Shown here piece after piece: positions 19,697 to 35,798 of a stretch of 38,752 nucleotides of DNA. Numbering within the stretch: position 1 is the first letter of the stretch; each line of letters starts with the position of its first letter. The position numbers were made by a program, and so were the translations under genes. Below the pieces are notes generated by a model. The model saw nothing but the letters and a program-made list of their open reading frames with translations, ran no database searches and had not been told where the DNA came from. The stretch lies in contig NZ_SDWW01000045.1 of NCBI RefSeq assembly GCF_004168625.1, forward strand, positions 1 through 38,752. The letters are read 5' to 3'. The stretch comes from Pengzhenrongella frigida (GTDB lineage Bacteria > Actinomycetota > Actinomycetes > Actinomycetales > Cellulomonadaceae).

Positions 19697-20686
19697 CTAC
19701 CCGAAATGCCCGCCGACGTAGGCCGCGGTCCGCTCGTCCTGCGGGTCACCGAACATCGAGCCGGTGTCCCCGTGCTCGACGATCACCCCGGGCGCCCCTT
19801 CGGCAGCGAGGAAGAACGCACACTGCTGCGAGACGCGCGCGGCCTGCTGCATGTTGTGGGTGACGATCACGATCGTCACCTCCCGGGCGAGCTCGGTCAT
19901 CGTCTCCTCGATCACCCGGGTCGACGTCGGGTCGAGCGCCGAGCACGGCTCGTCCATCAGCAGCACGCGCGGGCGGACGGCGAGCGAGCGGGCGATGCAC
20001 AGGCGCTGCTGCTGGCCACCCGAGAGTCCGCCGCCGAGGGCGCCGAGCCGGTCCCGGACCTCGCGCCACAGACCCGCCTTGGTCAGCGACTCCTCCACCA
20101 GCTGGTCCTTGGCCGAGGACGAGACCCGCACGCCGGTCAGCTTGAGCCCGGCGAGCACGTTCTCCCGGATGCTCATCGCCGGGAACGGGTTGGGCTTCTG
20201 GAACACCATGCCGATGTCGCGGCGGGCCTGGGTGAGCTTGCGTGCCGGGTCGTAGACGTCCTGGCCGTCGAGCAGCACCTCCCCCGCCATCGACGCGGAC
20301 GGCACGAGCTCGTGCATCCGGTTGAGGATGCGCAGGAAGGTCGACTTGCCACAGCCGGACGGACCGATGAGCGCGGTGACCTGCCCGGCGGGCATAGTGA
20401 GCGACACCCGGTCGAGGACCTGGTGGCGAGCGAACCAGGCCGAGATCGACTGCGCCTGGAGCTCCGCGAGCCCCTGGGGCTCGAACGACGGCGGTCGCCC
20501 GAGGTCGTGCCGGTGGGGCGCGGGAGGTGCCGGCGGCGGACCGGCATGCCGCACGGCGAACGGGTTGGTTCCCGCCGGCGCCACGGGCGCCATGGTCACG
20601 GTCGCCCCGGCCGGCGCGGTCGGCGCGAGCACGACCCGCTCCTCGTGCGGAGCGGGGCTGTCGTACGGCGCCCTGGGCTCGCTCAT
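19697..20686 (-). CDS. pstB: phosphate ABC transporter ATP-binding protein
   Basis: ATPase of the Pst phosphate importer. The 329-residue product has Walker A GPSGCGKST (near residue 108), Q-loop GMVFQKPNPFP (a PstB hallmark), signature LSGGQQQRL, Walker B VLLMDEPCSALDP and switch VTHNMQQA. About 75 extra N-terminal residues, Pro/Ala-rich, precede the ATPase fold; usual PstB is about 250-260 residues. Its ATG overlaps the stop of the DUF916 gene (ATGA), so its translation is coupled to a surface protein and not to pstSCA, which lie about 11-15 kb upstream in the same orientation. It presumably serves the PstC and PstA encoded here. Confidence 0.95.
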   Translation of the reverse strand: MSEPRAPYDSPAPHEERVVLAPTAPAGATVTMAPVAPAGTNPFAVRHAGPPPAPPAPHRHDLGRPPSFEPQGLAELQAQSISAWFARHQVLDRVSLTMPAGQVTALIGPSGCGKSTFLRILNRMHELVPSASMAGEVLLDGQDVYDPARKLTQARRDIGMVFQKPNPFPAMSIRENVLAGLKLTGVRVSSSAKDQLVEESLTKAGLWREVRDRLGALGGGLSGGQQQRLCIARSLAVRPRVLLMDEPCSALDPTSTRVIEETMTELAREVTIVIVTHNMQQAARVSQQCAFFLAAEGAPGVIVEHGDTGSMFGDPQDERTAAYVGGHFG

Positions 20687-22308
20687 GCGATCAGTCCTTT
20701 CCCTCGACGCGCGAGGAGATGGTTGCGGCCCAGGAGGGTGAGGGCGCCGGCGCTCCCGGCACCGCCGAGGCCGACGAGCGCCCACTGGGTCGGGGAGAGC
20801 TTGCGGTTCGCCGCCGACCACACCAGGTCGGGAGCCGGCGGTTCCGTGGCGATGACGGGGACGGCATCCACCCCGGTGGGCTCGGTGGCGGCTGGGGCGA
20901 TCGCCGGATCGACGACGGAGCCCGGGGCGGAAGCGGTGCGCGGTCGACCGGAGCTGCCGGTCGTGCCGCCACTGCTCGGGCCCGCGCCGGAAGACGAGGC
21001 GCTCGACGACGAGGCGCTCGACGGTGCGGGAACCGTGAGCGTGATCGTGTCGTCGACCGGGGCCGGCGGTGTGACGGCGCCGACCAGTGGTGCGGTTCGC
21101 CCGGCAGCGTGCGCGGCCGGAGCGGAGGCGACGAACAGGCCGGAGCCGAGGACCAGGACCGCCAGCACTGTCAGCACCGGCCCGCCGGCCGGGCCGATGG
21201 CGCGTCCGGCGCTGCGTCCGGCGCTGCGTCCGGCGACCTGCCCGAGTGCCGGGACCGGCTGCCCGGCCTCGTCGGCCTCGTCGGCCTCGGCAGAGAGACG
21301 ACGCCACAGCTCCTCCCCGTCCCGGCGCCGCTGACGGGCTCGACGCACGAGGAGCCACGCCAGAGCGGCGACGAGGAGCACGACGGCGAGGCCCGTCCAG
21401 GACACGACGAAGAAGGGGCTGCTTGCGGTGCTCGACACCAGCGGGATCTCGGTGTCGGGTCCCGGTGCGGCGACCATGTCGACGTCCACCACCGCCGCGA
21501 CGAGCCCGATCGGCGCGACGCCGTCGAGGAGCGAGCGCACGGTGACCGACTGGCCGGGAAGCACCTCCTGGGTGTCGACGGCCACCCCCGTGGCCAGCTC
21601 CAGCCCGAGGGGGCCGGTGACGCGGATGCGCGGTTTGCCGATGATCTTCACGTTGCCGGTGTTGGCGACCTCGTAGGAGACCTCCGTCGGGGCGGGCGCG
21701 AACGGCAACCAGCTCCCCGTGGCGGAGGCGTGCACCGCGCGGACCTCGAGCGAGGGGGTCAGCTCGCCGGGCACGCGCACGTTGAGGCGCACGGCCACGC
21801 GGGTGTCGAGGAGGACGCCGTCGGCCGTTGGCGTCGGGTTGACCAGGGACACGACCACGCCGCCGGCATGGTCGCCCGGGCTGGCGCCCTCCGGCACGGT
21901 CACGGTGAAGCCGACGACTGCGGTCGACAGCGCCGCGATCGTCACCGTGGGGGTGTCCGTCGTGACCCACAGGCCGACGTCGGTCGGGGCCGTGGCCGCC
22001 GCCCGAAGGTCGTACCCGCCGGCCGGGGTGTTGTAGGCGTCCGCGCCGTAGACGGCGAACGTCTGCTCGGCCGTGGAGGCGTTGGCGACGAGCACCCGGT
22101 CGGTCACTGCGGCCGAGACGTCGGCCTGCAGCTCGAACCGGGTGCGGCCGTCCTGCGCTCCAGCTCCGTCAGCGGGACTGGCGGACCAGGCCGCGGTGGC
22201 GTCATCTGCCACAGCGGCCTGGCCCAGGGTCAGGCCGAACGTTCCTGCCGCCGCGAGGGTCGCCGTGAGGGCGCCTTGCAGGATGCGGCGGACAACCAGG
22301 TGGGTCAT
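20683..22308 (-). CDS. DUF916 (WxL-interacting) protein with an extra membrane-anchored C-terminal segment
   Basis: The 541-residue product has a signal peptide, then beta-rich extracytoplasmic domains with the DUF916 signature VTVPEGASPGDHAGG, as in WxL-interacting proteins of Firmicutes. A TM helix lies at about 300-320, followed by a ~50-residue charged cytoplasmic stretch. A second hydrophobic segment (about 378-396) ends ASAPAAHAAG and looks like an internal signal sequence. A Ser/Gly/Pro-rich extracytoplasmic region and a third TM (about 513-532) with a basic tail complete it. The second half looks like another secreted protein fused on. It follows a WxL-like gene by 82 bp (GGAG 8 bases before the ATG) and overlaps pstB. 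Family assignment is by signature only. Confidence 0.7.
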   Translation of the reverse strand: MTHLVVRRILQGALTATLAAAGTFGLTLGQAAVADDATAAWSASPADGAGAQDGRTRFELQADVSAAVTDRVLVANASTAEQTFAVYGADAYNTPAGGYDLRAAATAPTDVGLWVTTDTPTVTIAALSTAVVGFTVTVPEGASPGDHAGGVVVSLVNPTPTADGVLLDTRVAVRLNVRVPGELTPSLEVRAVHASATGSWLPFAPAPTEVSYEVANTGNVKIIGKPRIRVTGPLGLELATGVAVDTQEVLPGQSVTVRSLLDGVAPIGLVAAVVDVDMVAAPGPDTEIPLVSSTASSPFFVVSWTGLAVVLLVAALAWLLVRRARQRRRDGEELWRRLSAEADEADEAGQPVPALGQVAGRSAGRSAGRAIGPAGGPVLTVLAVLVLGSGLFVASAPAAHAAGRTAPLVGAVTPPAPVDDTITLTVPAPSSASSSSASSSGAGPSSGGTTGSSGRPRTASAPGSVVDPAIAPAATEPTGVDAVPVIATEPPAPDLVWSAANRKLSPTQWALVGLGGAGSAGALTLLGRNHLLARRGKGLIA

Positions 22309-22390
22309 GAGATGTGCTCCGACTCAGGCTCGACGTGTTGCGGTGCGGCGGATCATTGAGGTGGATCGCTGAGCGGGATCGGGCCGCGCG

Positions 22391-23761
22391 TCAGCCGCCG
22401 ATGAGGGTGACGGTGATCGTCGAGGTGTAGCTGCCCTCGGCGGTCGTGGGCGGGATGGCCAGGTTGAGTGCGGCGCCCAGCGCGCTGGTCCCGCGGCCGC
22501 TGACCGTCGACTTGCCCAGCAGCTGGCTCGCGCCGAGGCCGGCGCTCGTGCCGCTGTCGAGGAACGACAGCACCTCGGGACCGGACTGGACGTTGAGCGG
22601 GCTGCCGGCGTCGGGGGTCTTGGTCGAGGACGGCGTCCAGCCGAGGTACTTCGCGCCGACGGTGCCGCCGGTGCTGGTGAAGTCCGAGGCCTGGACGTTG
22701 ACCTGCCAGCTGGTGAGGATGTCGTCGCTGCGCGTGTCAGAGACGGTCAGCGAGGGAAGGGCGGCCGTGGCCGTCACGCGGGTGTTGCCGGAGTCGCGTG
22801 CACCGGTCAGGGCGACGGTCGGGGCGGCGGGCGCGCTGATCGTCAGGCTGCCCGAGGTGACGACCGGCGCCGCGGGGACGAGGAGGGTCACCGTGATGTT
22901 GCTGGTTCCCACCGGCGCTGCGCCGACCGTGAAGGTCTGCGAGGCCGAATCGGAGGCGCCGAACGCCGCGGGGTCGGTCGGCACGAAGCTCGCGGTGAAC
23001 GTGTGGTTCCCGATCGAGGGCGCGGTCACCGTGTACGAGGCCGAACCGGCTGCGACAGCGACGGATCCGAGGTCGGTCGTCCCCTCGCGGAAGATCACCG
23101 TGCCGGCGGCGCTCGGTGCGACCGTCGCCGTCAGGACGAGGTTGGCGCCCGAGCCGACCGCGCTGAGCGTCGTGGCGGTGGCAACGACTCCGCTGGCGGT
23201 CAGTGCGGGCGGCGTCGGGACGGACCAGGTGCCGGCCGAGGTGTTGCCGACGACCGTCAGCGTCGACTCGAAGTACCCGGTGGCGACCGCCATCGGGTCC
23301 GCGCAGACGAAGGCCAGCGGCAGGGTGGCGGTGCCGCCCTGTGCGAGCACGTACGCGGCGACCTTCGCCGACGTCATCGGGTTCGAGTTGGTCGAGTTGT
23401 ACGAGCGGCCGAGCGCGTCAAGCTCCGTCGAGGTGGCGTTGAACTGCACCTCGTCCCAGCTGATCGGGTTGACCCCGACCTGCGGGATGCGCACCCGGGT
23501 GAAGTTCTGCGTCGTGCCCGCGGGGCAGACCTGGTCGACCGCGATCGTGGACCAGGGGCGCGTCAGGTTGGTGCCCGACGTGACGATGTTCGCGTTGGTC
23601 GCGTTGTTCAGGCTGACCGTCTTGCTGTTGAACAGGTAGATGTTGCCGGGCAGCAGAGGACCGTCGTCGGCAGCCGACGCCGAGCCGGCCGTCGCGACGG
23701 CCAGACCGGTGAGGAGCAACGAGCTGGCCGCGACAGCAGCCAGTGACTTGGTGAGGCGCAT
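22391..23761 (-). CDS. secreted WxL-like surface protein with one Ig-like repeat
   Basis: A 456-residue secreted protein. A signal peptide ends GSASA near residue 30. Residues about 30-185 form a Thr/Asn/Val-rich domain nearly identical to that of the protein at 25234-26868. A single Ig-like (Big_3-type) repeat spans about 190-275. The C-terminal ~150 residues contain LTVSDTRSDDILTSWQVNV and end in GSYTSTITVTLIGG, the layout of a WxL domain (DTR...W near its start, a YTATLTW-like final strand), although the final Trp is missing. WxL domains bind peptidoglycan non-covalently in Firmicutes. It lies between two DUF916 genes, the known WxL partners. The ATG at 23759-23761 is preceded by GGAAGGGA. 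Confidence 0.65.
   Translation of the reverse strand: MRLTKSLAAVAASSLLLTGLAVATAGSASAADDGPLLPGNIYLFNSKTVSLNNATNANIVTSGTNLTRPWSTIAVDQVCPAGTTQNFTRVRIPQVGVNPISWDEVQFNATSTELDALGRSYNSTNSNPMTSAKVAAYVLAQGGTATLPLAFVCADPMAVATGYFESTLTVVGNTSAGTWSVPTPPALTASGVVATATTLSAVGSGANLVLTATVAPSAAGTVIFREGTTDLGSVAVAAGSASYTVTAPSIGNHTFTASFVPTDPAAFGASDSASQTFTVGAAPVGTSNITVTLLVPAAPVVTSGSLTISAPAAPTVALTGARDSGNTRVTATAALPSLTVSDTRSDDILTSWQVNVQASDFTSTGGTVGAKYLGWTPSSTKTPDAGSPLNVQSGPEVLSFLDSGTSAGLGASQLLGKSTVSGRGTSALGAALNLAIPPTTAEGSYTSTITVTLIGG
23208..23710. repeat. 503-bp direct repeat, copy 1
   Basis: This block matches 26315-26817 (offset 3107) with one difference by my reading (A at 23657, C at 26764). It covers most of the signal peptide and the whole first domain of the two WxL-like genes. 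Identity stops abruptly at 23208, where the Ig-like region begins. Synonymous positions are identical, which indicates recent duplication or conversion. Confidence 0.95.
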
Positions 23762-23908: not shown

Positions 23909-25051
23909 TCAGATCTGGTCGGCACCGACCGACTCGGCCGCCTCTCGCTCGGGGGCGTCGGCCTGCGTCGCGGCGCGTGCGCGTGCCACCCGCCGCGCGT
24001 TCCGGCGGGTCTTGCGGCGGCGAGCCCGTACGACCCGGTAGATGGTGATCGCGATCAGCAGGGCGAGCGTCGCGAGGATTGCCCACGGGAAAGCCCACAC
24101 GACCGCCGAACCCGTCGCGGTGCCCACTCCGGGGTCTTCCCCGGCGGTCGGCGCCACTCCTCGCGCCGAGACCGTGACCGTCTCGAACCCGAGCGGCCAG
24201 ACGTCGGGGACCGTCGTCGTGACCTTTACCTCGCCGCCGGGCAGGATCTCGTCTGCCCGCTCGCCCGCCGCGGTCCGCTCGAGCAGCCCGAACGGGCCGG
24301 CGACCCGCACCGACGGCTCCACCGCGAGCCGGACGTTCCCGCTGTTTCGCAGGGTGTAGCTGACCGTCATCGTCCCCGCGCGCACGCCCGCCAGGGCGCC
24401 CGCCGCGTAGGTCGCCGTGACGTCGACGACGTCCAGTCCCGGGTCGAGCGGCCCCTCGACCCGGATGTACACCCGCGCCGCGACGCGCTGCTCGAGGGCG
24501 ATGCTCGGCGAGTTCTCACCACCCTGACCGGCGGAGACCAGCGAGGCGACGATGCCGCCCAGGTGGTCCCCGGGCTGGGCGTTGGCGGGAATGGTGAGGG
24601 AGAACGGCACCACGACATAGCCGAGGCCCGTCTCCTGCGACTGCGCCGGGATCTGGATCGTGCCCGGACCCTCGACGGTGATCCACGAGCCGGCGTCGGT
24701 GGTGGCCTGGTCGCGCGCGGTGACGGAGAGGCCGCCGCCGTCGGCCATCACCACGTCGCCGCTGTACACCTGGAGGTCGATGGGCGCGGCCGCCTGGTTG
24801 ATGATCGCGACGTGGTCGTAGATGACTGCCCCAGGCCCGGCGCTGAACTCCAGGAACGACCGGTCATCAGGGCGCTCCGCACTGGCGGGGCCGATGCCGA
24901 ACGACGCCAGTCCGTCGCCGTCCACCGGGGCGTCGGACTCGACCGGCGACGGTGACGGCGCCGCCTCGGCGAGGGCGGGGGCCGCAGCAAGGAACGCCGC
25001 GGTCAACGCGACAGCAGCCACTGCGAAGGCCCTGCGGAGGTGGTCGAACAT
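23909..25051 (-). CDS. DUF916 (WxL-interacting) membrane protein
   Basis: A 380-residue protein with signal peptide (cleavage near ALA-EA, about residue 28), an extracytoplasmic beta-rich region bearing LTIPANAQPGDHLGGI (DUF916 signature) and a second immunoglobulin-like part with YTLRNSGNVRL. One TM helix lies at about 315-340, followed by a strongly basic 40-residue cytoplasmic tail. This is the standard layout of WxL-interacting proteins, which hold WxL proteins at the wall in Firmicutes. The ATG (25049-25051) has AGGGAG 9 bases upstream. It is preceded by a strong terminator and followed, after 147 bp, by a WxL-like gene. Confidence 0.72.
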   Translation of the reverse strand: MFDHLRRAFAVAAVALTAAFLAAAPALAEAAPSPSPVESDAPVDGDGLASFGIGPASAERPDDRSFLEFSAGPGAVIYDHVAIINQAAAPIDLQVYSGDVVMADGGGLSVTARDQATTDAGSWITVEGPGTIQIPAQSQETGLGYVVVPFSLTIPANAQPGDHLGGIVASLVSAGQGGENSPSIALEQRVAARVYIRVEGPLDPGLDVVDVTATYAAGALAGVRAGTMTVSYTLRNSGNVRLAVEPSVRVAGPFGLLERTAAGERADEILPGGEVKVTTTVPDVWPLGFETVTVSARGVAPTAGEDPGVGTATGSAVVWAFPWAILATLALLIAITIYRVVRARRRKTRRNARRVARARAATQADAPEREAAESVGADQI

Positions 25052-25108
25052 CGTGAGTGACTCCCTGAGATCCCTTGAGAAGAGGTGTGCGTGCGGACGA
25101 ACGGGTTC

Positions 25109-25214: not shown

Positions 25215-25246
25215 GATCAGACGGCGGTGCTGATCAGACGGCGGTG
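25215..25246. repeat. 15-bp direct repeat spanning the stop of the larger WxL-like gene
   Basis: GATCAGACGGCGGTG occurs at 25215-25229 and 25232-25246. One copy includes the gene's stop codon region; the other lies just beyond it. A small tandem duplication of the gene's last codons is the simplest explanation. Confidence 0.8.
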
Positions 25247-26868
25247 AAGGTCACCGTCGCGGTGTACAGACCCGTCGTCACCGACGACGGAACCTGGTCG
25301 ATGCCGAAGGTCCCGGCAAGGTGAGCCGTTCCGTTCGTCGTGCCGGCGGCGTGCGTCGCGAACACCTTGGGCGTGGCCAGGCCGACCGTGAACGGAGCGT
25401 TCTGGGTCGGGGTGACCTGCGTCGCGAGGAGGGCGTTGCCCGCGACCTGGGTCGCTGCCACACCGGTGAGCCCGGCGTGCTTGCCGCTGAAGGAGCCACC
25501 AGAGCCGTTGGTGAACGCACCCGACATGACCGAGGCGGTGAAGCCCAGCTGTCCGGCGCGCGTGTCCGTGATCACGATGTTCTCGAACGGCGCCGAGGCG
25601 GAGTAGGTCGAGTCGGTCGGGTCGAGAACCGCCTCGGAGAGCTCGAGGGGGGCGCCCTCGGTGTACGGCGTGGTGATGGTGATCGAGCCCTGCGGGATCG
25701 TCACGACGACGGTCTGCAGGTCGACGGCGCCCTCGTTCTCGTACGTCGCCTCGACAACGGCCGAGGTCGAGTTCGTGTACGGGCCCGAGCCGACGAACTC
25801 CGCGACCAGGTTGTGGACGCCGGCGGCAAGCGCGTTGGTGGTCAGCGGGGCAGCGACCCCGGCGACGCAGGGAACGGAACCGAGGGTGGTGGCGCCGTCC
25901 TTGAAGGTGACCGTGCCGTCAGCCGCACCGAGCGAGGCGGTGACGGTCGGCGTGAGCGTGATGGACGCGTTGGCGAAGCCGGTGACCGCGGAGACCGCGA
26001 GGACCGTGGTGGTGGACCGCGCGGCGACAGCCGTCACGGTCACGACGACCGGGGCGGAGGTGCTGGCGCCGTTGTTCGCGTCACCCGAGTAGACGGCAGT
26101 GATCGAGGGGGTGCCGACCGGGAGGGTCGACGTCGTCAGGGCGGCGGAGCCGGCAGCGACCGGGGCCGACCCGAGGGACGCGGCACCCGCGAAGAATTCG
26201 ACCGTGCCCGTCGCGGCGGCCGGAGCGACCGCGGCGGTGAGGGTGACGGGCGAGCCCGACTCGACGCTGCTGGCGCTCGCCGTGAGCCCCACCGTGGTGC
26301 CAGCCAGGATCGCCGGCGGCGTCGGGACGGACCAGGTGCCGGCCGAGGTGTTGCCGACGACCGTCAGCGTCGACTCGAAGTACCCGGTGGCGACCGCCAT
26401 CGGGTCCGCGCAGACGAAGGCCAGCGGCAGGGTGGCGGTGCCGCCCTGTGCGAGCACGTACGCGGCGACCTTCGCCGACGTCATCGGGTTCGAGTTGGTC
26501 GAGTTGTACGAGCGGCCGAGCGCGTCAAGCTCCGTCGAGGTGGCGTTGAACTGCACCTCGTCCCAGCTGATCGGGTTGACCCCGACCTGCGGGATGCGCA
26601 CCCGGGTGAAGTTCTGCGTCGTGCCCGCGGGGCAGACCTGGTCGACCGCGATCGTGGACCAGGGGCGCGTCAGGTTGGTGCCCGACGTGACGATGTTCGC
26701 GTTGGTCGCGTTGTTCAGGCTGACCGTCTTGCTGTTGAACAGGTAGATGTTGCCGGGCAGCAGCGGACCGTCGTCGGCAGCCGACGCCGAGCCGGCCGTC
26801 GCGACGGCCAGACCGGTCAGGAGCAAGGAGCTGGCCGCGAGCGCGGCGAGCGGCTTGAGAATGCGCAT
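25234..26868 (-). CDS. secreted WxL-like surface protein with two Ig-like repeats
   Basis: A 544-residue secreted protein. Its signal peptide and first domain (to about residue 185) are almost identical to those of the 456-residue protein at 22391-23761. Two Ig-like repeats follow (about 188-275 and 277-370; motifs GTVEFFAGAASLGS and GTVTFKDGATTLGS). The C-terminal part has IVITDTRAGQLGF and ends GLYTATVTFTAV, resembling a WxL domain with the aromatic motifs degenerated (F for W). No TM or sortase signal is visible, so it is either released or held by DUF916 partners. It follows the secreted PstS-like gene by 71 bp, with a purine-rich GAGAGAGAG leader, so the two probably form one transcript. 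Confidence 0.62.
   Translation of the reverse strand: MRILKPLAALAASSLLLTGLAVATAGSASAADDGPLLPGNIYLFNSKTVSLNNATNANIVTSGTNLTRPWSTIAVDQVCPAGTTQNFTRVRIPQVGVNPISWDEVQFNATSTELDALGRSYNSTNSNPMTSAKVAAYVLAQGGTATLPLAFVCADPMAVATGYFESTLTVVGNTSAGTWSVPTPPAILAGTTVGLTASASSVESGSPVTLTAAVAPAAATGTVEFFAGAASLGSAPVAAGSAALTTSTLPVGTPSITAVYSGDANNGASTSAPVVVTVTAVAARSTTTVLAVSAVTGFANASITLTPTVTASLGAADGTVTFKDGATTLGSVPCVAGVAAPLTTNALAAGVHNLVAEFVGSGPYTNSTSAVVEATYENEGAVDLQTVVVTIPQGSITITTPYTEGAPLELSEAVLDPTDSTYSASAPFENIVITDTRAGQLGFTASVMSGAFTNGSGGSFSGKHAGLTGVAATQVAGNALLATQVTPTQNAPFTVGLATPKVFATHAAGTTNGTAHLAGTFGIDQVPSSVTTGLYTATVTFTAV
26315..26817. repeat. 503-bp direct repeat, copy 2
   Basis: Partner of 23208-23710, in the same orientation and inside the second WxL-like gene. 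The two copies are 3.1 kb apart and are potential substrates for homologous recombination, which would delete the DUF916 gene between them. Confidence 0.95.
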
Positions 26869-26939: not shown

Positions 26940-27989
26940 TCAGTTGACCGCGAAGTTCGTGACTGCGGCCGTCGTGCTGACCTGGGTGCCACACGCGCCG
27001 CCATCGATGGGCGAGGCCATCTGGTCGAGCCCGGCGGCCTTGATCAGGGCCGTGGCAGAGGAGCTGCACAGGAAGCCGTCGGAGCCGAAGAGGGTCGCGA
27101 CGTACGCCTTGTTGGCGTCGGCACCGCGAACCACGTCGTAGACCGCACGCGATGCCTGGAAGCTCCCGGCGCCGTTGAGGATGCGGACCACGCCGGTCGC
27201 GTTCGCGAACCCGGCGCGCCCGATGGAGAAGGGAGCGATGGCGTTGACGGCGTTCGGGTTCGTGGTGAAGACCGACGGGTCGTGCTCCTGGACGGTCACG
27301 AGGCCGGTGCTGAGCACGACGGCGGTGCCACCGTTGGCGGCCTGGAGCTGGGACTCGAAGAACGCGCGCGTACCCGAGCCCGCCTGCGGGATCATCGCGA
27401 CGATGGTGCCGCTCGTGCCACCGATCTGGTTCCAGTTGGTCGTGGCACCGGAGTAGATCGAGACGAGCTGAGCGATCGTGATCGCGGCAGGGGCGTTTGT
27501 GCCCGGTGCGGCGACGGCGATGGCGAGCTTGTCCACGGCGAACGGGTAGGCCTTGAGGTTGGCAGTGACCTCAGCGGCGCTGAGGGCCGAGGACGAACGG
27601 GCGAAGTTCACGGCCGCGTTCTCGGTGCCGGCCAGGTAGAGCAACTTCTTGCCGGCGCCCGACCCGTCGGGGCGGACGATCGGCGTGGTGCCGGACTTGA
27701 GCGTGATGGTGTCGTGGATGTTCGCGTCGGTGGTCGCGACGGACGGGTTGAGCGCGTTGAACGACACCAGACGCGCGTCGGCGGCCGCGTTGTAGCCCGG
27801 GCTGAAGTTCGCGCCGACCTTCACGCCGTCAGCGGCGTAGTTGAGCGCGTACTGGATCGTGTCCGATCCGACGCCGACGACGTCGCGCGCCTGCGGGGCG
27901 AAGTCGGCGGACGCGGAGGACGCGCCTGCGAGCGAGATGGCGCCGGTCAGCAGGACTGCTGCGACGGTCGCAACCTTCGTACGCTTCAT
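26940..27989 (-). CDS. secreted PstS-like substrate-binding protein
   Basis: A 349-residue protein with a signal peptide ending SSASA-DF (no lipobox cysteine) and a PstS-type periplasmic-binding fold. Recognisable parts are VGVGSDTIQ near the N-terminus, YPFAVDKLAIAV, IAQLVSIYSGATTNWNQIGG and IPQAGSGTRAFFESQL, equivalent to the anion-binding GSGT loop of PstS. No TM or anchoring motif is visible, so it may be released or wall-bound. The ATG (27987-27989) has GGAAGGG 8 bases upstream. It has its own promoter region behind a strong terminator and is probably co-transcribed with the WxL-like gene. Whether it binds phosphate or another oxyanion is not clear. Confidence 0.78.
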   Translation of the reverse strand: MKRTKVATVAAVLLTGAISLAGASSASADFAPQARDVVGVGSDTIQYALNYAADGVKVGANFSPGYNAAADARLVSFNALNPSVATTDANIHDTITLKSGTTPIVRPDGSGAGKKLLYLAGTENAAVNFARSSSALSAAEVTANLKAYPFAVDKLAIAVAAPGTNAPAAITIAQLVSIYSGATTNWNQIGGTSGTIVAMIPQAGSGTRAFFESQLQAANGGTAVVLSTGLVTVQEHDPSVFTTNPNAVNAIAPFSIGRAGFANATGVVRILNGAGSFQASRAVYDVVRGADANKAYVATLFGSDGFLCSSSATALIKAAGLDQMASPIDGGACGTQVSTTAAVTNFAVN

Positions 27990-28171: not shown

Positions 28172-28206
28172 TTGGTTGAGATGGCGGGGTGACCCGGTCA
28201 GACGCG

Positions 28207-29193
28207 TCAGATGAGGTTGGGCACCAGCTGGACGACGACGTCCGTCGTCCACCACGCGAGCGCGATCAGCACCGGCGCAGCGAGAACCCACAGCACCCGC
28301 ATCGGCAGGTGACGACGCACCAGGACGACGCCCACCGCCGACAGGAGCAGTGCTTGGAGCGCCAGCGCGAGCATCGGGAGGACGGAGAAGTCGCCCTTGA
28401 GGCTCTTCTCGGCTTCCGGCACCGCGGCCGGTCTGCCCGCCGGACCGATGACGGCCTCGCCCTGGAGGGTGGCGTCGACATAGACAGCGCTCGTCGGCGC
28501 CACGGCTGCCATCGGTCCCTGACCTTCCGCCGTGACCAGCGTCAGCCGACTCCCGCCGGCCTTCAGCGCGGTCGGCATCGGATCTCCGCCGCGCCGGACC
28601 CCGTCGACCCGGTACACGAACTCGCCCTGCCCGGTGGTGACCTCGATCCCGTCGCCGGGACGCAGCGCGGTGATCGACCGGAACGGCCCGCCGTAGGTGA
28701 GGGCCCGCCCGTACACGAGCGAGACGCCGACCTGCCCCGGCAGCACGGTGTCGCGCCGGTGCCCTGGCCCGGACAGCAGGTCGCCCGCGGCGGTGCCCTC
28801 GACGACGACCTGCTCGCGGCCGAGGGTCGGGATCGACAGGATGGCCACCGGCGCGCCCGGTTCGATCGCCCCGCCGGTCGGCGCGGTCTGGGCGGCGAGC
28901 TGCTCGCGCAGCTCGGCATACAGGACGTGCTGTGCGCGTGCCTGCTCGAGCCCCCCGAGCCCCAGCACCTGGATCAGGAACCATCCGCAGAGCGCCGCTA
29001 CGGTGACCAGGGCCCAGATCCCGCTCGAAGCCCCGGCCGGCACCGGCGGCCGCGGGAGAGCGGGGCGCCGAGGACGGACCCCACCGTTGGCACGTCGCCC
29101 CGAGGGCGAGGAGGGATCGATGGGAGCGCCGACCGGCGCCGGTTGCCGGACCGGGCCGGCGCCGGTCGCTTCTTCGAGCACCTCGACGGTCAT
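28207..29193 (-). CDS. sortase-fold membrane protein lacking catalytic residues
   Basis: The 328-residue product has a Pro-rich cytoplasmic N-terminus, TM at about 58-79, a sortase-like domain (about 115-245) and two C-terminal TMs (272-292, 299-318). The domain follows class D/E sortases: AILSIPTLGREQVVVEGT, GPGHRRDTVLPGQ, then GVSLVYGRALTYGGPF where active sortases have GNxVIAGHRxTxGxPF. Arg163 thus replaces the catalytic His. The later LTLVTAEG has Ala222 in place of the catalytic Cys (LTLxTC), and no Arg follows in the expected strand. Transpeptidase activity is therefore unlikely; a structural or binding role is inferred. It overlaps the 887-residue gene by 4 bp (ATGA) and is the last gene before a strong terminator. 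Confidence 0.72.
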   Translation of the reverse strand: MTVEVLEEATGAGPVRQPAPVGAPIDPSSPSGRRANGGVRPRRPALPRPPVPAGASSGIWALVTVAALCGWFLIQVLGLGGLEQARAQHVLYAELREQLAAQTAPTGGAIEPGAPVAILSIPTLGREQVVVEGTAAGDLLSGPGHRRDTVLPGQVGVSLVYGRALTYGGPFRSITALRPGDGIEVTTGQGEFVYRVDGVRRGGDPMPTALKAGGSRLTLVTAEGQGPMAAVAPTSAVYVDATLQGEAVIGPAGRPAAVPEAEKSLKGDFSVLPMLALALQALLLSAVGVVLVRRHLPMRVLWVLAAPVLIALAWWTTDVVVQLVPNLI

Positions 29194-31853
29194 GAGCGGG
29201 GCCTCCGGGTTGAGATCTGGCGAAGCACCGGCGCGCCGATGAGTCCCAGCGTGCCGACGCCGAAGATCGCCGGCAGGGTTGCCCCGCCAAGCCCGCCGAG
29301 CCGGGGCGCGTCGGTGCGGACCGAGGCGGCGGCCACGCTCACGCTGGGACCGACGGGTGCCGGATCACCCGCCGACGTCAGCGGCACGACGGCGGTCGAC
29401 GCCGCGGCCGGCGGCACCGCGACGAACGGGTTCGAGACCGCCGTTGCGGGTGGTGCGGCCGGCTGCGCGACGGGCGGTGCGGCCGGCGACGCCGTGATGA
29501 CGGGCGGCACGACCGGCTCCACCATCAACCCGGTCTGAGCGGCGATGGCATCGGCGACCTTGCGCGCGCTCGTGTAGAGCGCAGCGGTCGCTCCGGTCGA
29601 CGTGATCGGGAGGTAGCCCTCCGGCAGCTGCCCGATCGCGGTGCCCTGGAGCTGGCCTTCCGTCGTCGCCACGTCGATGAACTGCGAGACCTGCCCGGCT
29701 GTGCCCGCGTTCAGACCGGTGAGCGCCGCGGCGACATTGACCGTCATCGTGCCCGGATAGGCATCGGGATGGGTGCGCAGCACCGCCTGGTCGAGCAGGT
29801 ACGGCCCCCCGAGCGCCGACTGCGTCGCGGTCTCGATCGCCGCGGCCATCGAGACGTTCTCCGGCCCGACGAACGTGCCGGATGTTCCGGTTCCGCTCGT
29901 GCGAAGCAGTGCCGTGGTCAGGCCGTATCGCCGCGCGTCGGCCACGGACACCAGACCGAGCATGTGGCGGGCACCATAGTTCTGCCGGGGTGACCGGGTG
30001 AACTTGCACAACGCGCTCACCGGATCCTGATCGTGGCTGTAGAGCGACTCGGGCGTGGCACTGAGCACGTCCTGGGCGATCTTGTTCATGCCGCTGACGG
30101 GCGCGAGCACGCGGTTGAACCACGCGAGCGGCTGGTCCGCGTCGCACACGTTCAGGCTCGGCTGCCGCCAGACGTCGAGCAGCGGCCAGTCGTCGCGGGG
30201 AAGTGCCAGGCCCTGGTAGGCCGCGTTGACGGTCATCCCGGACGGGTCCTTCTCACCGTTGAGGAATGCCATGGCCTCGGGATCGGCTGCGATGTACTCC
30301 GTGAGCGACCGGATGGCGTCCGAGGGGTTTGCCAGGGAGAGCAGGCTCGCCCAGGTGATGTCGGCGTTCTTCGTGTAGGCCAGCTCCGACCTCAGTCCCG
30401 GATTGAGGTCCAGGAACTCAGGATCGACGTTGATCGACCACGGGTTGTTCGCGAGATCCGGCCGCTCCTTCTTGGACGCGTCCGAGAGGGGGACTCCGGG
30501 GTACGAGCCCGACATGAGCTTGGCCAGCAACTTCGGGGTGAGGCGCAGCTCGGTCAGCTGACCGGCGTTGCCCGGGATGTCGACCACATAGGCGATCGCG
30601 AAGCCCGTCACCGCGATCGGGGCGTAGGCGTAGGGCAGATCGCCCTCCTGCGGTTCGCCCGGATAGCTGACCAGTGCGGCGGTCGCGATGCCGCGGCGCA
30701 GGTTCCGGAACGCGGTCGCCTCCGGCATGGCGTTGGCCTGGAACTTGAACCGGTCGCTCTTCCCGCAGTACGCCGGGGCCCACTGCAGCGCCGCCTGCGA
30801 GATCAGCTCCGACCCGTAGAACGCGAGCGGCGCCCGGGCGTCGAGGAGGTCGCAGACGTTGCGTGCGGCCGCGATCGTCAGGGGGATCACGAACCGGTTC
30901 CGCCAGTTCGACGCCGACCACCACGTCGCGCCCGTGACCGCGACGTTCGTGCCGACCTGGTCCGAGTAGTCGACCCCCGGCTCCCCCTTCGCCTCCTTCA
31001 CGCACTGCCTGTCGGCGTCGCGGCAGCTGATCCCCATGATCGGGATCACGACGATCGAGCAGGGCACGGTCGCCGAGCAGCCGAGCGACTGGTTCTCGGC
31101 AGACGTGCGGACCTCGAACGGCATCCCGCCCGTCCCGTCCAACCCGGTGATCGCCCCGAGCTCGTTGGGCGGCAACGCCGACCCGACCCCCATCTCGGGC
31201 GGGGACGAGTGCCCGCCGTTGCACGACCAGTACTTCGTCCCGTCCGCGCCGAGGAAGGGGACGAGGTGGCGGGCCGTGGTCGCGTCGCCAGCGGAGTCGC
31301 ACTCTGTCGGCCACGCGTCCGCCGCCGGCGACGAGACGGAGCGGTCCAGGTCGCTCGCGTAGAGGTCGTGGGTCCACACGGCGTAGAAGGCCGAGTCGCT
31401 GGTGTCCCGCTTCGAGGTGTCGGTGGTCCAGCAGGTCTCGGGGGTCACCTGATTGTCGACACCCCGGCACTGCAGAATGATCACCGGGTACTCCTGCTGC
31501 TGACCGCTGCTGCTCGACAGGTCGCCCTGCACGCTCGCCGTCGGACGCGCGCCCGTCCAGCTGACCGCGACGGACTGGCGGCCCTGCAGGTCGGTCGTCC
31601 GGTCGGCGACGACGGTGACCTCGCGGGAGTCCACCTCTTTGTCGGTGCCGTCCGGCTGGCGCATCACGCGAGTCAGGGTCTTCGTGACCTCGTACGCGGG
31701 ATCGGCGACCGCCGCCGCGACGACCGGCCCGGCGGCCACAGCCGGCGCGGCACTGGCACCGAGGTAACCGGCCCCCAGGATCGTCGTCGTGAGGCACAGG
31801 AGGGCGACTCCCGCGGCTCCCCGGCGCAGCCGCGGAACTCCCACGCGGGTCAT
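29190..31853 (-). CDS. large cysteine-rich secreted protein with a PstS-like domain
   Basis: An 887-residue protein with a signal peptide (about residues 1-41), an N-terminal domain of about 290 residues with most of its 12 mature cysteines (up to six disulfides), then a region resembling PstS: FYGSELISQAALQWAPAYCG, LPYAYAPIAVTGFAIAYVVD and ELRLTPKLLAKLMSGSYPG match PstS segments in the same order. I do not find the RSDGSGTT anion loop, so phosphate binding is uncertain. The last ~100 residues are Pro/Ala-rich, followed by a weak TM and RRPRS tail. The ATG overlaps the pstS stop (ATGA). Co-translation with pstS suggests a dedicated partner at the membrane surface. Confidence 0.68.
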   Translation of the reverse strand: MTRVGVPRLRRGAAGVALLCLTTTILGAGYLGASAAPAVAAGPVVAAAVADPAYEVTKTLTRVMRQPDGTDKEVDSREVTVVADRTTDLQGRQSVAVSWTGARPTASVQGDLSSSSGQQQEYPVIILQCRGVDNQVTPETCWTTDTSKRDTSDSAFYAVWTHDLYASDLDRSVSSPAADAWPTECDSAGDATTARHLVPFLGADGTKYWSCNGGHSSPPEMGVGSALPPNELGAITGLDGTGGMPFEVRTSAENQSLGCSATVPCSIVVIPIMGISCRDADRQCVKEAKGEPGVDYSDQVGTNVAVTGATWWSASNWRNRFVIPLTIAAARNVCDLLDARAPLAFYGSELISQAALQWAPAYCGKSDRFKFQANAMPEATAFRNLRRGIATAALVSYPGEPQEGDLPYAYAPIAVTGFAIAYVVDIPGNAGQLTELRLTPKLLAKLMSGSYPGVPLSDASKKERPDLANNPWSINVDPEFLDLNPGLRSELAYTKNADITWASLLSLANPSDAIRSLTEYIAADPEAMAFLNGEKDPSGMTVNAAYQGLALPRDDWPLLDVWRQPSLNVCDADQPLAWFNRVLAPVSGMNKIAQDVLSATPESLYSHDQDPVSALCKFTRSPRQNYGARHMLGLVSVADARRYGLTTALLRTSGTGTSGTFVGPENVSMAAAIETATQSALGGPYLLDQAVLRTHPDAYPGTMTVNVAAALTGLNAGTAGQVSQFIDVATTEGQLQGTAIGQLPEGYLPITSTGATAALYTSARKVADAIAAQTGLMVEPVVPPVITASPAAPPVAQPAAPPATAVSNPFVAVPPAAASTAVVPLTSAGDPAPVGPSVSVAAASVRTDAPRLGGLGGATLPAIFGVGTLGLIGAPVLRQISTRRPRS

Positions 31854-33535
31854 GCGCTGGCCTTCCGGCGCCGATGCCGCATGGCGAGCAGGCCGGGGAC
31901 CAGGACGAGCGCGATCAGCTCGGCCGCAGCCAGTGCCCCGAAGGCGAACCCTCCGCCGGCCGGCCGGGATGCGACCAGGCTTGCCACCGCGCCGCTCGCG
32001 ACAGCACCTGCACCGCCGGCAGCGTCCGCACCGATCGGGAGTCCGGTCTCGGGGTCGATCGCAGTGCTGGCGGCCTCGCCCGCCGCGGCCGCCGCAGCGG
32101 CGTCGGTCACCGATGCCCCGGCGGCACCGGCCGCGCCGGCGGCACCGGCGGCGGCCGAGCCGGCAGCTGCGGCAGCGCCGGCGGCGGCCGCAGCGCCCCC
32201 GGTCGTCGCGGCCCCGGCGGCACCGGCGGGCAGGCAGGGTCCGGCCCCCGCCTTGTCGCACGCGGCCGGCATCGGCGCGACGTCGGCCAGGCGGTTCGCG
32301 TTGAGGTCGCCCGGCACGAAGGTCGGGTTGTTGCACTTGGTCGCGTCGCGGTTCTGGATGTCGACGTTCGCGTCAGCGGTCTTGAGCTTGCCGAGCTGCT
32401 CGAACCCGGCCTGGACGAGGTTCAGGGGCAGCGGCGAGTAGCCGTAGGCCCCCGCTTTGCCCTGTCCTTCGCACAAACCGTAGAACATCAGGTCGAGCAG
32501 CGACTGTCGCTTCGCGGTCGTCATGCGGGTGTCCTCGCCCGCCCCCGAGCCCGACTTCCCGGTCGGCAGGATCAGGTACGAGTAGGACGAGAGCGCGTAC
32601 GCACGCGGGTCCGGGTTCGTGTAGACCTCGTCGAGGATCTGCGTCAGGTACAGCGGTGAGGCCTTGTCCTGGTTGATCTTCGCCTTCGTCAGCGCCACCG
32701 CGACGTTGTTGTCCGTCGGCTCGACGAAGTAGCCGGCTGCATTGAGGACCTTGGCCACCGGGTAGTCCTTGTTCAGCGCATAGGAGTACTCGACGTACCC
32801 GATCGTGCCGTTGCCGGCGCTCGAGGAGATCGTGTTCATCACCTGGTCCGAGCCGGGTGCGGAGAGCATCTTCGCGCCGCTCTTCGTCGGGTAGTACGAG
32901 GAGAGCCCGGCCTTGCCGAAGTACGGCTGCCAGATCGTGGGGAACTGGCTGTTCAGCCACGTCGTGAACTGGGCGGTCGTGCCGGATCCGTCCGAGCGCA
33001 CCACCGGGATGATCGCCAGGTCGGGGAACGTCCGACCGTTGTTGTCCGCCACGATCTGCGGGTCGGTCCAGTTGGTGATCTTGTTGGTGAATATCTTGGC
33101 CACCGTCTCCCCAGACAGCCGCACGTCACGCATCAACTTGCCGCCGACCTCGATGTGGTACGTGAACGCCGTGCCGCCGGCCACGATGGGCATGTAGGCG
33201 TACGGGCGGTTCGGGGAGGTGTCCGCCGCTCCGAACTCGTCGGTCCCCTGGTACGGGATCTCGCTGATCGCGAAGTCGTCCTGGAAGTTGGCGAAGTTCT
33301 TCCGTCCGAGCGACGAGCCACCACCGCTGTAGACGACCTGGATCCCGTTCGCGCTGACATCGGCGACCCACTGGTTGACGATGACCTGGCTCCAGGTCGA
33401 CCCGTCCCCCTCGATCAGGACGTAGTCGGCTGAAGCCGGGGCGGTCACGCCCCCGAGCATGGCGACGAGCACGAGCGCCGCGACGGCCGACGCTCGCCTC
33501 ACCCTGACCGCGGTCCTGGACGCGAGACGAGTCAT
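31850..33535 (-). CDS. pstS: phosphate ABC transporter substrate-binding protein, TM-anchored
   Basis: Captures extracellular phosphate for PstCA. The 561-residue product has a signal peptide ending PASA-DY (residue 36) with no lipobox, then the PstS fold: EGDGSTWSQ, YSGGGSSLGRKNF, RPYAYMPIVAGGTAF, LSGETVAKIFTNKITNWTDP and RSDGSGTTAQFTTWL (residues 180-194). At FAISEIPY Glu92 sits where PstS normally has the phosphate-contacting Asp (SDAP-like). After about residue 425 comes a ~100-residue Ala/Gly-rich stalk, then a C-terminal TM (about 530-550) and RHRRRK tail that replaces the usual lipid anchor. The ATG (33533-33535) has AGGAG 5 bases upstream. About 89 bp follow pstA. Confidence 0.9.
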   Translation of the reverse strand: MTRLASRTAVRVRRASAVAALVLVAMLGGVTAPASADYVLIEGDGSTWSQVIVNQWVADVSANGIQVVYSGGGSSLGRKNFANFQDDFAISEIPYQGTDEFGAADTSPNRPYAYMPIVAGGTAFTYHIEVGGKLMRDVRLSGETVAKIFTNKITNWTDPQIVADNNGRTFPDLAIIPVVRSDGSGTTAQFTTWLNSQFPTIWQPYFGKAGLSSYYPTKSGAKMLSAPGSDQVMNTISSSAGNGTIGYVEYSYALNKDYPVAKVLNAAGYFVEPTDNNVAVALTKAKINQDKASPLYLTQILDEVYTNPDPRAYALSSYSYLILPTGKSGSGAGEDTRMTTAKRQSLLDLMFYGLCEGQGKAGAYGYSPLPLNLVQAGFEQLGKLKTADANVDIQNRDATKCNNPTFVPGDLNANRLADVAPMPAACDKAGAGPCLPAGAAGAATTGGAAAAAGAAAAAGSAAAGAAGAAGAAGASVTDAAAAAAAGEAASTAIDPETGLPIGADAAGGAGAVASGAVASLVASRPAGGGFAFGALAAAELIALVLVPGLLAMRHRRRKASA

Positions 33536-33624
33536 CGGAGCTCCTGAGGTGCGGGTGCGGCGGCGGGGTGAGCGGGGGTGGGGTGCACGGAGGTGGGGTG
33601 GGTCCTGGGCGGGCCCGCGCGCGC

Positions 33625-34785
33625 TCATCGGCCGTTCGCCGGTCTGGCGAGTCGGCGAGCGACGACGAACAGGATCAGGACGATGGCGAGCAGGATCACC
33701 GCAGCGGCGAACCCTCGCTGGATGTAGACCGGCTCGCCGCTGCGCACGGCGCTGAAGATGAACAGCGGCAGCGAGTTCATCGACCCGATGAACGGGTTGA
33801 CCACCAGGAACGAGGACGCCCCCGACGTGAGCAGCACCGGGGAGGTCTCGCCGATGCCGCGCGCGATGCCGAGGATGAGCGCGGTGGCCAGGCCGGGTCG
33901 CGCCGTCGGCAGGACGACGTGCCAGACCGTCCGCCAGCGAGACGCACCGAGGGCCAGGCTCGCCTCGCGCAGCCCGCCCGGGACCACCCGCAGCACGACG
34001 TCGGCCGCCCGCGCGATGATCGGCAGCATCATGACCGACAGGGCCATCGCGGCCGCGAAGCCCGACCGCGGCACTCCCAGCTGGAGCAGCAGCACCGTGT
34101 AGATGAACAGCCCGGCGACGATCGAGGGGAGCGCGGTCATCGCCTCGACCACGGTGCGGACGACGCGCGCGAACCGACCCCCGACCTCCGTCATGAACAC
34201 CGCGGTGCCCAGCGCGAGCGGCACCGTCACGACGATGGCGATGCCGACCTGGATGAGCGAACCGACGATCGCGTGCAGCACGCCGCCCCGGTCCAGGGGG
34301 TCGCGTGGCCCCACCCCCGCCATGTCCTGCGTGAACGTGTTGAGGTGCGGCAGCACGGCCGCCCCGCGCGCGAACGTGAACACGACCGTCGAGACGAGGG
34401 CGATCCCCACGAGTGCCGCGCCGCCGGTGATCAACGCGGCGGCGAGCCGGTCGGCGACTGCCGGACCGGGGGTGAGGGCTGCGGTCGTCACCGTGACGAT
34501 CGCGAGGAACAGCACGAACCCGGTGAGCGCGAACGCCAGCACCGTTCCCCACGGGAGCAGCCGGAAGCAGACCAGCCAGGCCAGGGCGGGTGCGGAGACC
34601 AGCGACCCGAGCACGACCATGCGGTCCTGGGCGGTCGAGGTCGACAGGGTGCGCCTGCGCTGGGGCTCGGCGGTCGCGGGGAGGTCTTCGAGCGAACGGA
34701 CCCAGGTGCGCGGGCTCTCGTCCGCACCCGGGCGCGACCGCTCGCGGGTGGGCGTGATGGTGAGGGTGGGTGTGACCGTGGTCAT
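33625..34785 (-). CDS. pstA: phosphate ABC transporter permease PstA
   Basis: A membrane channel subunit of Pst. The 386-residue product has a ~55-residue polar N-terminus, several extra N-terminal helices, then the permease core with VGSLIQVGIAIVVTVPLALG, ALPSIVAGLFIYTVLLL and the EAA loop GLREASLALGASRWRTVWHVVLPTA, ending in GIARGIGETSPVLLTSGAS, typical of PstA. The ATG overlaps the pstC stop by one base (TGATG). It is longer than the ~300-residue E. coli protein mainly because of the N-terminal part, as in other actinobacteria. Confidence 0.95.
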   Translation of the reverse strand: MTTVTPTLTITPTRERSRPGADESPRTWVRSLEDLPATAEPQRRRTLSTSTAQDRMVVLGSLVSAPALAWLVCFRLLPWGTVLAFALTGFVLFLAIVTVTTAALTPGPAVADRLAAALITGGAALVGIALVSTVVFTFARGAAVLPHLNTFTQDMAGVGPRDPLDRGGVLHAIVGSLIQVGIAIVVTVPLALGTAVFMTEVGGRFARVVRTVVEAMTALPSIVAGLFIYTVLLLQLGVPRSGFAAAMALSVMMLPIIARAADVVLRVVPGGLREASLALGASRWRTVWHVVLPTARPGLATALILGIARGIGETSPVLLTSGASSFLVVNPFIGSMNSLPLFIFSAVRSGEPVYIQRGFAAAVILLAIVLILFVVARRLARPANGR

Positions 34786-35798
34786 CAGATGTCCGTCCCT
34801 GCGCCCGAGCGGCTGTTCGCGACGATGAGTGCCGCGAACGTGTTGACGACGAGCGTGATGAGGAACAGCACGAAGCCCGCGGTCAGCAGCGCCGAGAGCT
34901 GGGAGGGAGACGCCTCGCCGAACCGCCCCGCGATGAGCGCCGAGACCGTGTTGGTGCCGACCTCGAGCGGGCGGAACTTCAGGTCGAACGACGGCGAGAT
35001 GATCAGGACGACGGCGATCGTCTCACCGAGGGCGCGCCCCATGCCGAGCATCGTGCCGCCGATGATCCCGCCCCGACCGAACGGGAGCACCACCGTGCGG
35101 ATCATCCCCCAGCGGGTCGACCCGAGCGCGAGCGCCGCCTCCCGCTCCCCCAGCGGCGTCTGCGAGAAGACCTGGCGCATCACCGCGCAGGCCATCGGCA
35201 TGGCCATCATCGCGACGGCGAGTCCGGCCACGAAGGCCGAGGCCGTGTAGCGGGACTGCTCCCACATCGCGGCGTGCGCGTCGGCATCGACCCGGAAGAA
35301 CGGCAGGAAGCCGGCATAGGTCTGCAGCCAGTGCGCGACGTTGCTCGCGTGCGGCTGCAGCAGGAAGAACCCCCACAGGCCGTAGATGATGCTGGGCACC
35401 GCGGCCATCAGGTCGACGAGGGCGACCAGGGACGAGCGCAGCCGCGCCGGCGCGTACTCGACGATGAACAGGGCCATGGCCAGCGCGAGCGGGAAGGCGA
35501 CGGTCATCGCCACGAGCGCGACCGTCGCCGTCCCGACCAGCACCGAGGCGATCCCGATGACATCCGCCTCGGGCTGCCACTGGGTCTCGGTGAAGAACGA
35601 CAGCCCGTAGCGCCGCAGGGTCGGGAAGGCCTGCAGGGCGAGGAAGAAGCCGATCCCGCCCGTGATCGCCAGCACCGTGGCACCGACGGTCCGCGAGAGG
35701 ACCACGAAGACCTTGTCGGAGCCGCTCTGGTTGCTGGACAGCCGCCGCGGCGTCGCCGCCAGGAGCGCGGGATCCTCCGTCCGCACCGCAGTGCTCAT
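34785..35798 (-). CDS. pstC: phosphate ABC transporter permease PstC
   Basis: A channel subunit pairing with PstA. The 337-residue product shows about six TM helices, LMAAVPSIIYGLWGFFLL, the EAA loop GEREAALALGSTRWGMIRTVVLPF and GRALGETIAVVLIISPSFDL, all characteristic of PstC. The ATG at 35796-35798 is preceded by a modest AGAGAG; a longer frame exists but the conserved region starts here. It is the first gene of the pst transcript, with a PHO-box-like repeat about 90-110 bp upstream. The gene order C-A-S, with pstB far away, differs from the usual S-C-A-B. Confidence 0.95.
   Translation of the reverse strand: MSTAVRTEDPALLAATPRRLSSNQSGSDKVFVVLSRTVGATVLAITGGIGFFLALQAFPTLRRYGLSFFTETQWQPEADVIGIASVLVGTATVALVAMTVAFPLALAMALFIVEYAPARLRSSLVALVDLMAAVPSIIYGLWGFFLLQPHASNVAHWLQTYAGFLPFFRVDADAHAAMWEQSRYTASAFVAGLAVAMMAMPMACAVMRQVFSQTPLGEREAALALGSTRWGMIRTVVLPFGRGGIIGGTMLGMGRALGETIAVVLIISPSFDLKFRPLEVGTNTVSALIAGRFGEASPSQLSALLTAGFVLFLITLVVNTFAALIVANSRSGAGTDI

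Follow-up and report, generated by a model that had tools for sequence, protein, structure and literature searches.

Analysis of a 38,752-bp stretch of Pengzhenrongella frigida DNA (contig NZ_SDWW01000045.1, positions 1 to 38,752; hereafter the window) revealed a phosphate transport (Pst) locus in which pstC, pstA, pstS1 and pstB enclose genes for a giant PstS-fold protein of 887 residues (S887), a sortase-fold protein lacking catalytic residues (the pseudo-sortase), a further PstS-like protein (PstS3) and two pairs of WxL-like and DUF916 surface proteins. The locus is a second Pst system, because a canonical pst locus is also present in this genome (4.3 Mb in 126 contigs). The widely conserved core of such loci is pstCAB with an anchored PstS1, S887 and the pseudo-sortase. 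We consider it rather probable that the product of the locus is an additional phosphate importer of the Pst type, induced by phosphate starvation and tied physically to the cell wall.

Organization of the locus

Eleven genes run in a single direction on the minus strand, from pstC at 35798 down to pstB at 19697. Overlaps of 4 bp join pstS1 to S887, S887 to the pseudo-sortase gene and dufB to pstB; pstC and pstA share 1 bp. A first-pass annotation of this DNA had placed pstC, pstA, pstS and pstB with an interleaved block on one strand and had described the three 4-bp overlaps. All genes were found at the ends it gave, and the overlap coordinates were exact.

34785-35798, minus strand: pstC, permease (TIGR02138, 243.3 bits against a cut-off of 196.45)
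33625-34785, minus strand: pstA, permease (TIGR00974, 207.6 bits against a cut-off of 193.45)
31850-33535, minus strand: pstS1, 561 amino acids, PstS followed by a low-complexity linker and a C-terminal transmembrane anchor (PF12849, 2.8e-39)
29190-31853, minus strand: S887, giant of 887 amino acids with the PstS fold, carrying long insertions, a disordered linker and a C-terminal transmembrane segment (profile and predicted fold)
28207-29193, minus strand: pseudo-sortase, 328 amino acids, class E-like, three hydrophobic segments (sortase domain, 1.2e-12)
26940-27989, minus strand: pstS3, 349 amino acids, secreted PstS-like protein without C-terminal anchor (PF12849, 1.8e-16)
25234-26868, minus strand: wxlA, N-terminal domain, two Big_3_5 stretches and a C-terminal WxL-like domain
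23909-25051, minus strand: dufA, DUF916/WxLIP-like, C-terminal transmembrane segment
22391-23761, minus strand: wxlB, N-terminal domain, one Big_3_5 and a C-terminal WxL-like domain
20683-22308, minus strand: dufB, DUF916/WxLIP-like (PF06030)
19697-20686, minus strand: pstB, ATPase (PF00005, 3.7e-35; Walker A and signature motifs intact by reading)

PstC and PstA are phosphate equivalogs by the NCBIfam cut-offs, and PstS1 is a clear PstS by its PF12849 match despite an NCBIfam shortfall that is weighed below. The canonical locus lies on another contig (G000:C37), which rules out the window locus as the sole pst copy. It encodes a lipobox PstS, PstC, PstA and PstB, together with PhoU-like, sensor-kinase-like and response-regulator-like open reading frames (ORFs), the regulators being named by reading the sequence. 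Two PstC over the cut-off were found in all 17 genomes with a pseudo-sortase locus versus one of 17 without it (G008), the other 16 of the latter having one. The window locus shares with a canonical PstSCAB importer PstC, PstA, PstB, the PstS fold, the phosphate loop of PstS1 and PHO-box-like promoter sites. Unlike the canonical system, its PstS1 has a C-terminal transmembrane anchor instead of a lipobox, its pstB is set apart from pstC-pstA, and it adds a giant PstS without the motif, the pseudo-sortase, PstS3 and wall-type proteins. The passages available of a review on phosphate transport in Streptomyces and its actinobacterial relatives (PMC7866108) list PstSCAB and duplicate Pit systems as conserved universally; a term search of the review gave no mention of a sortase or of a second or two pst systems.

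S887 and the pseudo-sortase

The first-pass annotation had named two further PstS-like proteins and an inactive-looking sortase-fold protein, and both descriptions held. PstS3 is recognized directly by PF12849. S887 is nearly blank in Pfam (PF12849 at 0.0024, under the cut-off) and blank in NCBIfam, and its PstS likeness was found by profile and fold. A profile built from 49 S887 homologues matches PstS structures at 1.1e-7, and hhalign pairs it with the PstS1 family at 98.5% (E 2.6e-15). The AlphaFold2 model (pLDDT 83.9, pTM 0.82), which shows a disordered linker and a C-terminal helix, has PstS-1 (1pc3) as its best PDB match (E 1.8e-10, TM-score by target 0.71). A C-terminal transmembrane segment is present by hydropathy in all 82 complete S887 ORFs, and the protein carries conserved cysteines. 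S887 has no RSDGSGTT opposite the PstS1 loop in the hhalign alignment, and a second loop has lost its acidic residue. We take S887, judging from alignment and model, for a membrane-anchored PstS derivative that probably binds no phosphate and may bind another ligand.

Mycobacteria have several PstS proteins per genome, and we know of no wall module of mycobacterial PstS1 or PstS3. These proteins (PDB 1pc3, 4lvq) are among the closest folds to S887, which differs from them in its long insertions and in lacking the phosphate motif.

The pseudo-sortase aligns to a class E sortase (PDB 5go5) at E 1e-16 and misses the NCBIfam class E sortase cut-off (71.5 versus 160 bits); its closest named match is from Cellulomonas humilata (64% over residues 51-322). 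An active-looking paralogue of the same genome (G000:C22, with SGHRTTYG and TLTTC) served as the active-site reference. At the position of the catalytic histidine, 98 pseudo-sortase homologues have arginine (91, including the window protein), lysine (3) or histidine (4). Cysteine never appeared within six columns of the catalytic cysteine, and the catalytic arginine is absent from its aligned column, in all 98. The four proteins that keep histidine are all from Dactylosporangium (L061, L067, L073, L074), and cysteine is still missing in them. By hydropathy the sortase domain of the window protein is flanked by one transmembrane-like segment on the N-terminal side and two on the C-terminal side, and PNL near the C-terminus of the protein is invariant in an 18-row alignment. 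Comparison with class E sortases (PDB 5go5, SrtE1 5cuw and the paralogue) thus revealed a shared sortase profile, alignable through the regions of the catalytic histidine and cysteine; the pseudo-sortase differs in having no cysteine, mostly arginine for histidine, no active-site arginine and extra C-terminal hydrophobic segments. Conservation of the protein without its active site points to a binding role.

Conservation and distribution of the locus

A search of 198 genomes of the order with the pseudo-sortase found a clear orthologue in 17 besides the window's own, at 146-415 bits; below 146 the scores fall in one gap to 71, where ordinary class E sortases start. PstB is present in all 17 of these order-level loci. 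Ten were available at full length, and they contain S887 (10), PstS3 (10), PstS1 (9), DUF916 (8) and WxL-like (5) proteins. A second set, the named loci, comprises the best 80 of the 295 relatives that a single peptide pattern retrieved and is rich in Nocardioides and Aeromicrobium. Some pst gene occurs in 78 of the 80, the remaining two being contigs of under 4 kb with S887 and the pseudo-sortase. Counts by gene were made on the 54 named loci of at least 19.8 kb (full-flank loci; the 26 shorter ones were excluded): pstB, pstS1 and S887 in 54 each, pstA in 51, pstS3 in 47 and pstC in 43. These loci were fetched by the pseudo-sortase alone. Counts based on hidden Markov models drop genes that are cut at a contig end, low-scoring or late in match start, and "not detected" refers to the available stretch at the thresholds used.

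Across 197 sampled genomes of the class, 30 (counting the window's own) have the pseudo-sortase at E<=1e-20 and 28 have S887. In two of the 30 the match is confined to the sortase domain and stays below 85 bits; these two may be ordinary sortases. Taking both searches as one sample, as the genome lists indicate, 26 genomes have both proteins, four the pseudo-sortase only, two S887 only and 165 neither. The four comprise two genomes of low completeness and two weak partial matches, possibly ordinary sortases. In 21 of the 26 genomes with both, a reading of the places put the two proteins on one contig. Gene-neighbourhood comparison therefore found adjacency in relatives far beyond chance; chance adjacency is ruled out by the conserved gene set of the relatives' loci and by the co-occurrence of S887 with the pseudo-sortase. 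Plasmid-borne relatives of S887 were also considered, and none was found in the plasmid collection at E<=1e-5.

Sites upstream of pstC

Direct repeats resembling PHO boxes lie 72-111 bp upstream of the window pstC.

35870-35909, minus strand: PHO-box-like direct repeats

They read GTTCGTC, GTTCACC and GGTCATC at 11- and 22-bp steps. The canonical pstS is preceded by two GTTCA[CT] 11 bp apart, and no GTTCA[CT] is present upstream of the fusion gene described below. According to passages of two reports on Streptomyces coelicolor (PMC9019756, PMC4415409), the PHO boxes of PhoP are 11-bp repeats with GTTCACC. The window, the 17 order-level and the 80 named loci (98 in total) gave 53 usable pstC upstream regions. 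Where pstC is the first gene, GTTCA[CT] occurs 36-150 bp upstream of its estimated start in 33 of 41 loci; the same test was positive in 1/12 where pstB directly precedes pstC and in 33/399 controls (other genes of the same loci). Pairs at 11 or 22 bp precede pstC in 9/53 regions, against 0.12 expected from dinucleotide shuffles and 0/153 controls. These motifs argue strongly for control of the operon by PhoP.

Phosphate-binding proteins and a PstS-WxL fusion

The window PstS1 contains both GDGSTW (GxGS[TS]W) and RSDGSGTT. Among 76 PstS1 sequences the serine of GxGS is invariant (76/76) and the arginine of RSDGSGT is kept in 65. A C-terminal transmembrane segment was found by hydropathy in 73 of 76 complete PstS1 ORFs. 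The window PstS3 has a hydrophobic N-terminus; 77 of 80 complete PstS3 ORFs have no C-terminal transmembrane segment, and the pattern [GS]SG[TS][RW] finds a loop in 62/78. Several Nocardioides PstS3 (loci such as L054, L057, L077) are longer, with a C-terminal extension that looks immunoglobulin-like by eye.

A 634-amino-acid ORF on another contig, away from the pst loci (G000:C71; L143:10005-11909, plus strand), joins a PstS1 paralogue to a WxL-like domain. It shows 77% identity to the window PstS1 over residues 25-512 and 52% to WxlB over 432-634. The fusion, a single case, unites PstS with a WxL-like domain in the same polypeptide and so supports wall attachment of a phosphate-binding protein. 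The wall-attached complex for phosphate capture or sensing proposed in the first-pass annotation gains from this as regards attachment; a capture role may not extend to every component, because S887 lacks the RSDGSGT motif and may not capture phosphate.

The WxL-like and DUF916 proteins

Support for DUF916 is partial. DufB scores 29.9 bits against PF06030 (cut-off 27.3) in a whole-genome search and 26.3 in hmmscan; dufA alone has no match. With homologues included, 38 of 44 match PF06030 at E<=0.1 (best 1.2e-11), and the DUF916 alignment profile matches the solved EfmWxLIP1 (9i25, 9i1y) at about 1e-7 (best E 9.5e-8). In the part of PMC10599100 available, DUF916 is described as the domain of WxLIP that binds peptidoglycan and WxL.

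Neither wxlA nor wxlB matches PF13731 (WxL). Including homologues and the fusion, 10/34 match it at E<=0.1 (best 7.2e-6), and three bit scores of 20.4-23.1 lie under the cut-off of 25. Passages of PMC9772566 state that WxL domains carry aspartic acid and arginine 8 and 6 residues before the first tryptophan. Both residues precede the first tryptophan in all 34 WxL-like domains, at 8 and 6 residues in short-loop members and at 10 and 8 in wxlB, and the domain stands at the protein C-terminus. The first tryptophan is kept in 30/34 and the second in 0/34; the domains of the wxlA/wxlB type are therefore, on sequence criteria, WxL-like but divergent, and fall outside the strict definition by two motifs. 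The two WxL-like/DUF916 pairs of the first-pass annotation are thus upheld on the DUF916 side in part, and on the WxL side only as a divergent form. A fold search with the wxlB model (pTM 0.41) was uninformative, with mixed immunoglobulin-like matches alone and no WxL structure.

Judged against the WxL/WxLIP (DUF916-DUF3324) clusters of Bacillota, as far as the available passages of PMC9772566 and PMC10599100 describe them, the window type shares the C-terminal WxL-like domain, the invariant aspartic acid and arginine before the first tryptophan and a paired DUF916-like protein with a C-terminal transmembrane segment. It differs in having L/F/V/I for the second tryptophan, in its pst association and in its Actinomycetota host. 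DUF3324 is not among the matches listed (25 of 27 families) for the 44 aligned DUF916 proteins.

Among the 54 full-flank loci, WxL-like proteins occur in 19 and DUF916 in 20 (both in 19, DUF916 alone in one, WxL-like alone in none), and neither was detected in 34, which rules out the pairs as an essential core. The figure of 34 was obtained with a profile restricted to the C-terminal WxL-like domain; a looser first profile gave 33. PF06030 was found in 24/119 genomes of the order at 40 places, seven of them in pst loci by reading. In a further 35 DUF916 loci, the stretch around DUF916 also encodes a WxL-like domain in 33 cases, and pst-system genes show up in L183 alone, a pst locus split from its pseudo-sortase/pstB half. 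Pairs without convincing pst genes were seen in L155-L159, L161-L182, L184 and L186-L189; weak PstB-profile matches in L159 and L189 (94 and 114 bits) are probably other ABC (ATP-binding cassette) ATPases. By these sequence matches the pairs form a general surface module of the order, a WxL/WxLIP-type system in Actinomycetota.

A DUF916 tree of 81 sequences (46 pst-linked, 35 not) requires three label changes against 26.3 after shuffling, with 0/500 shuffles as low; its "not linked" rows rest on 3-9 kb stretches, in which pst profiles are convincing only in L183, labelled pst-linked. Clustering of the pst-linked sequences indicates that the pst link is old. The tie between Pst and WxL/DUF916 drawn in the first-pass annotation is accordingly real and old by locus counts and tree, with the pairs as accessories outside the core; the same annotation had named unrelated loci as the sign of chance adjacency, and pairs do occur at loci without pst.

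DufA and dufB fall in different parts of the tree, which rules out recent duplication of both pairs as far as the DUF916 genes are concerned. The N-terminal parts of wxlA and wxlB (26315-26840 and 23208-23733, minus strand) are 99.4% identical over 526 bp and the rest diverges, which suggests recent gene conversion of this domain. The DUF916 ORFs of two Streptomyces loci terminate in a sorting signal of the LAxTG type.

Neighbouring genes

Upstream of pstC lies one small ORF before a kinase gene.

35947-36351, minus strand: ORF of 134 amino acids between the kinase and pstC (no Pfam match at E<=0.001)

Homologues of this ORF occur in other pseudo-sortase loci (L049, L050, L051, L059; weaker in L093, L095, L115), and it possibly belongs to the unit. 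GTTCATC and GGTCATC stand 22 bp apart upstream of it (about 36447-36469, minus strand). An NlpC/P60 peptidoglycan hydrolase (18169-19569, minus strand) adjoins pstB downstream, and a homologue does likewise in L032.

The kinase (36482-38137, minus strand) is a Ser/Thr kinase with PASTA domains, and homologues lie upstream of pstC in L032, L049, L050 and L059. Together with the two degenerate components, it would fit a system acting chiefly as a phosphate sensor or regulator based in the wall: the pseudo-proteins would read extracellular phosphate and relay the signal by way of the permease or the kinase, and net transport would be small. Such a role is improbable in our view: PstB has an ABC ATPase domain with motifs that are intact by reading, and a kinase homologue is present in only 2/54 full-flank named loci.

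Proposed mechanism and alternatives

In the importer that we favour, PstCAB would be the pump. PstS1, which a C-terminal helix rather than a lipid would hold at the membrane by way of a long flexible linker, would catch phosphate, as would secreted PstS3. S887 and the pseudo-sortase would act as membrane-bound, non-catalytic scaffolds that dock binding proteins or wall-anchored parts on the permease. Where present, the WxL-like proteins would bind wall glycan, and the DUF916 proteins would clamp them and tie them to the membrane. Binding proteins within or outside the thick wall would then pass phosphate inward.

Several observations weigh against this proposal. As regards the ligand, which could differ, none of the three PstS-like proteins reaches the NCBIfam PstS cut-offs (PstS1 169.7 versus 205 bits, PstS3 55.4 versus 206.6, S887 no match). 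The canonical loop aspartic acid of PstS, a position that we take to be Asp56 of Escherichia coli, is glutamic acid in 63/76 PstS1, the window protein included, and aspartic acid in 13; the RSDGSGT arginine is histidine in 11/76. With the motif-less S887 and the canonical pst locus already in the genome, these points would suit a substrate or signal other than free phosphate, such as another oxyanion, nucleic acid, phosphoesters or wall polymers that carry phosphate; in that case the surface proteins would bind the polymer and the permease would take up the ligand once released. We regard this as unlikely, since PstC and PstA exceed the phosphate equivalog cut-offs, PstS1 keeps its motif arginine in 65/76 and PHO-box-like sites stand upstream.

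As regards the wall, the missing PF13731 matches of wxlA and wxlB, the lost second tryptophan, the 34 loci without either protein and the PF06030 places outside pst loci belong to the same side. Two of the three label changes in the DUF916 tree are forced by well-supported branches, so that the pst-linked sequences are not one clade, and of 81 family genomes the window's own is the sole one with the full-length fusion. The pairs might then be a wall-adhesion module carried along in the operon, with surface proteins that do not interact with PstS; the extra DUF916 loci, nearly all with a WxL-like domain and only L183 with pst genes, would agree with that, as would the 34 loci. We give this little credence in view of the clustering of pst-linked DUF916, the PstS-WxL fusion and the position of the pairs inside the pst operon, with dufB overlapping pstB by 4 bp in the window. 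Finally, the counts span related genomes and are non-independent, and expression, binding and transport are deduced from sequence.

An ABC importer of a thick-walled bacterium is usually pictured with its binding protein next to the membrane surface. The present locus links phosphate-binding proteins to modules of the wall type and to two conserved pseudo-proteins. More tentatively, and with less confidence than in the importer itself, the locus may represent a distinct and widespread ABC importer architecture of Actinomycetota, a wall-spanning phosphate-capture complex with a membrane core organized by a dead sortase, which would still recognize or hold surface proteins, and by a dead PstS giant, which would cap the permease; binding proteins on WxL-like/DUF916 wall anchors would feed it with phosphate. 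A literature search, with most subscription papers and all bioRxiv preprints outside its scope, found no title or abstract opening describing such a Pst/WxL/pseudo-sortase system; one Enterococcus faecalis paper (PMC12502612) contains both the terms WxL and PstS. If true, the system would give thick-walled bacteria a way to catch scarce phosphate at the surface. Confirmation would make nutrient passage across the wall a testable question, would give dead sortases a role, and would place WxL/WxLIP-type anchoring with a nutritional use in Actinomycetota.

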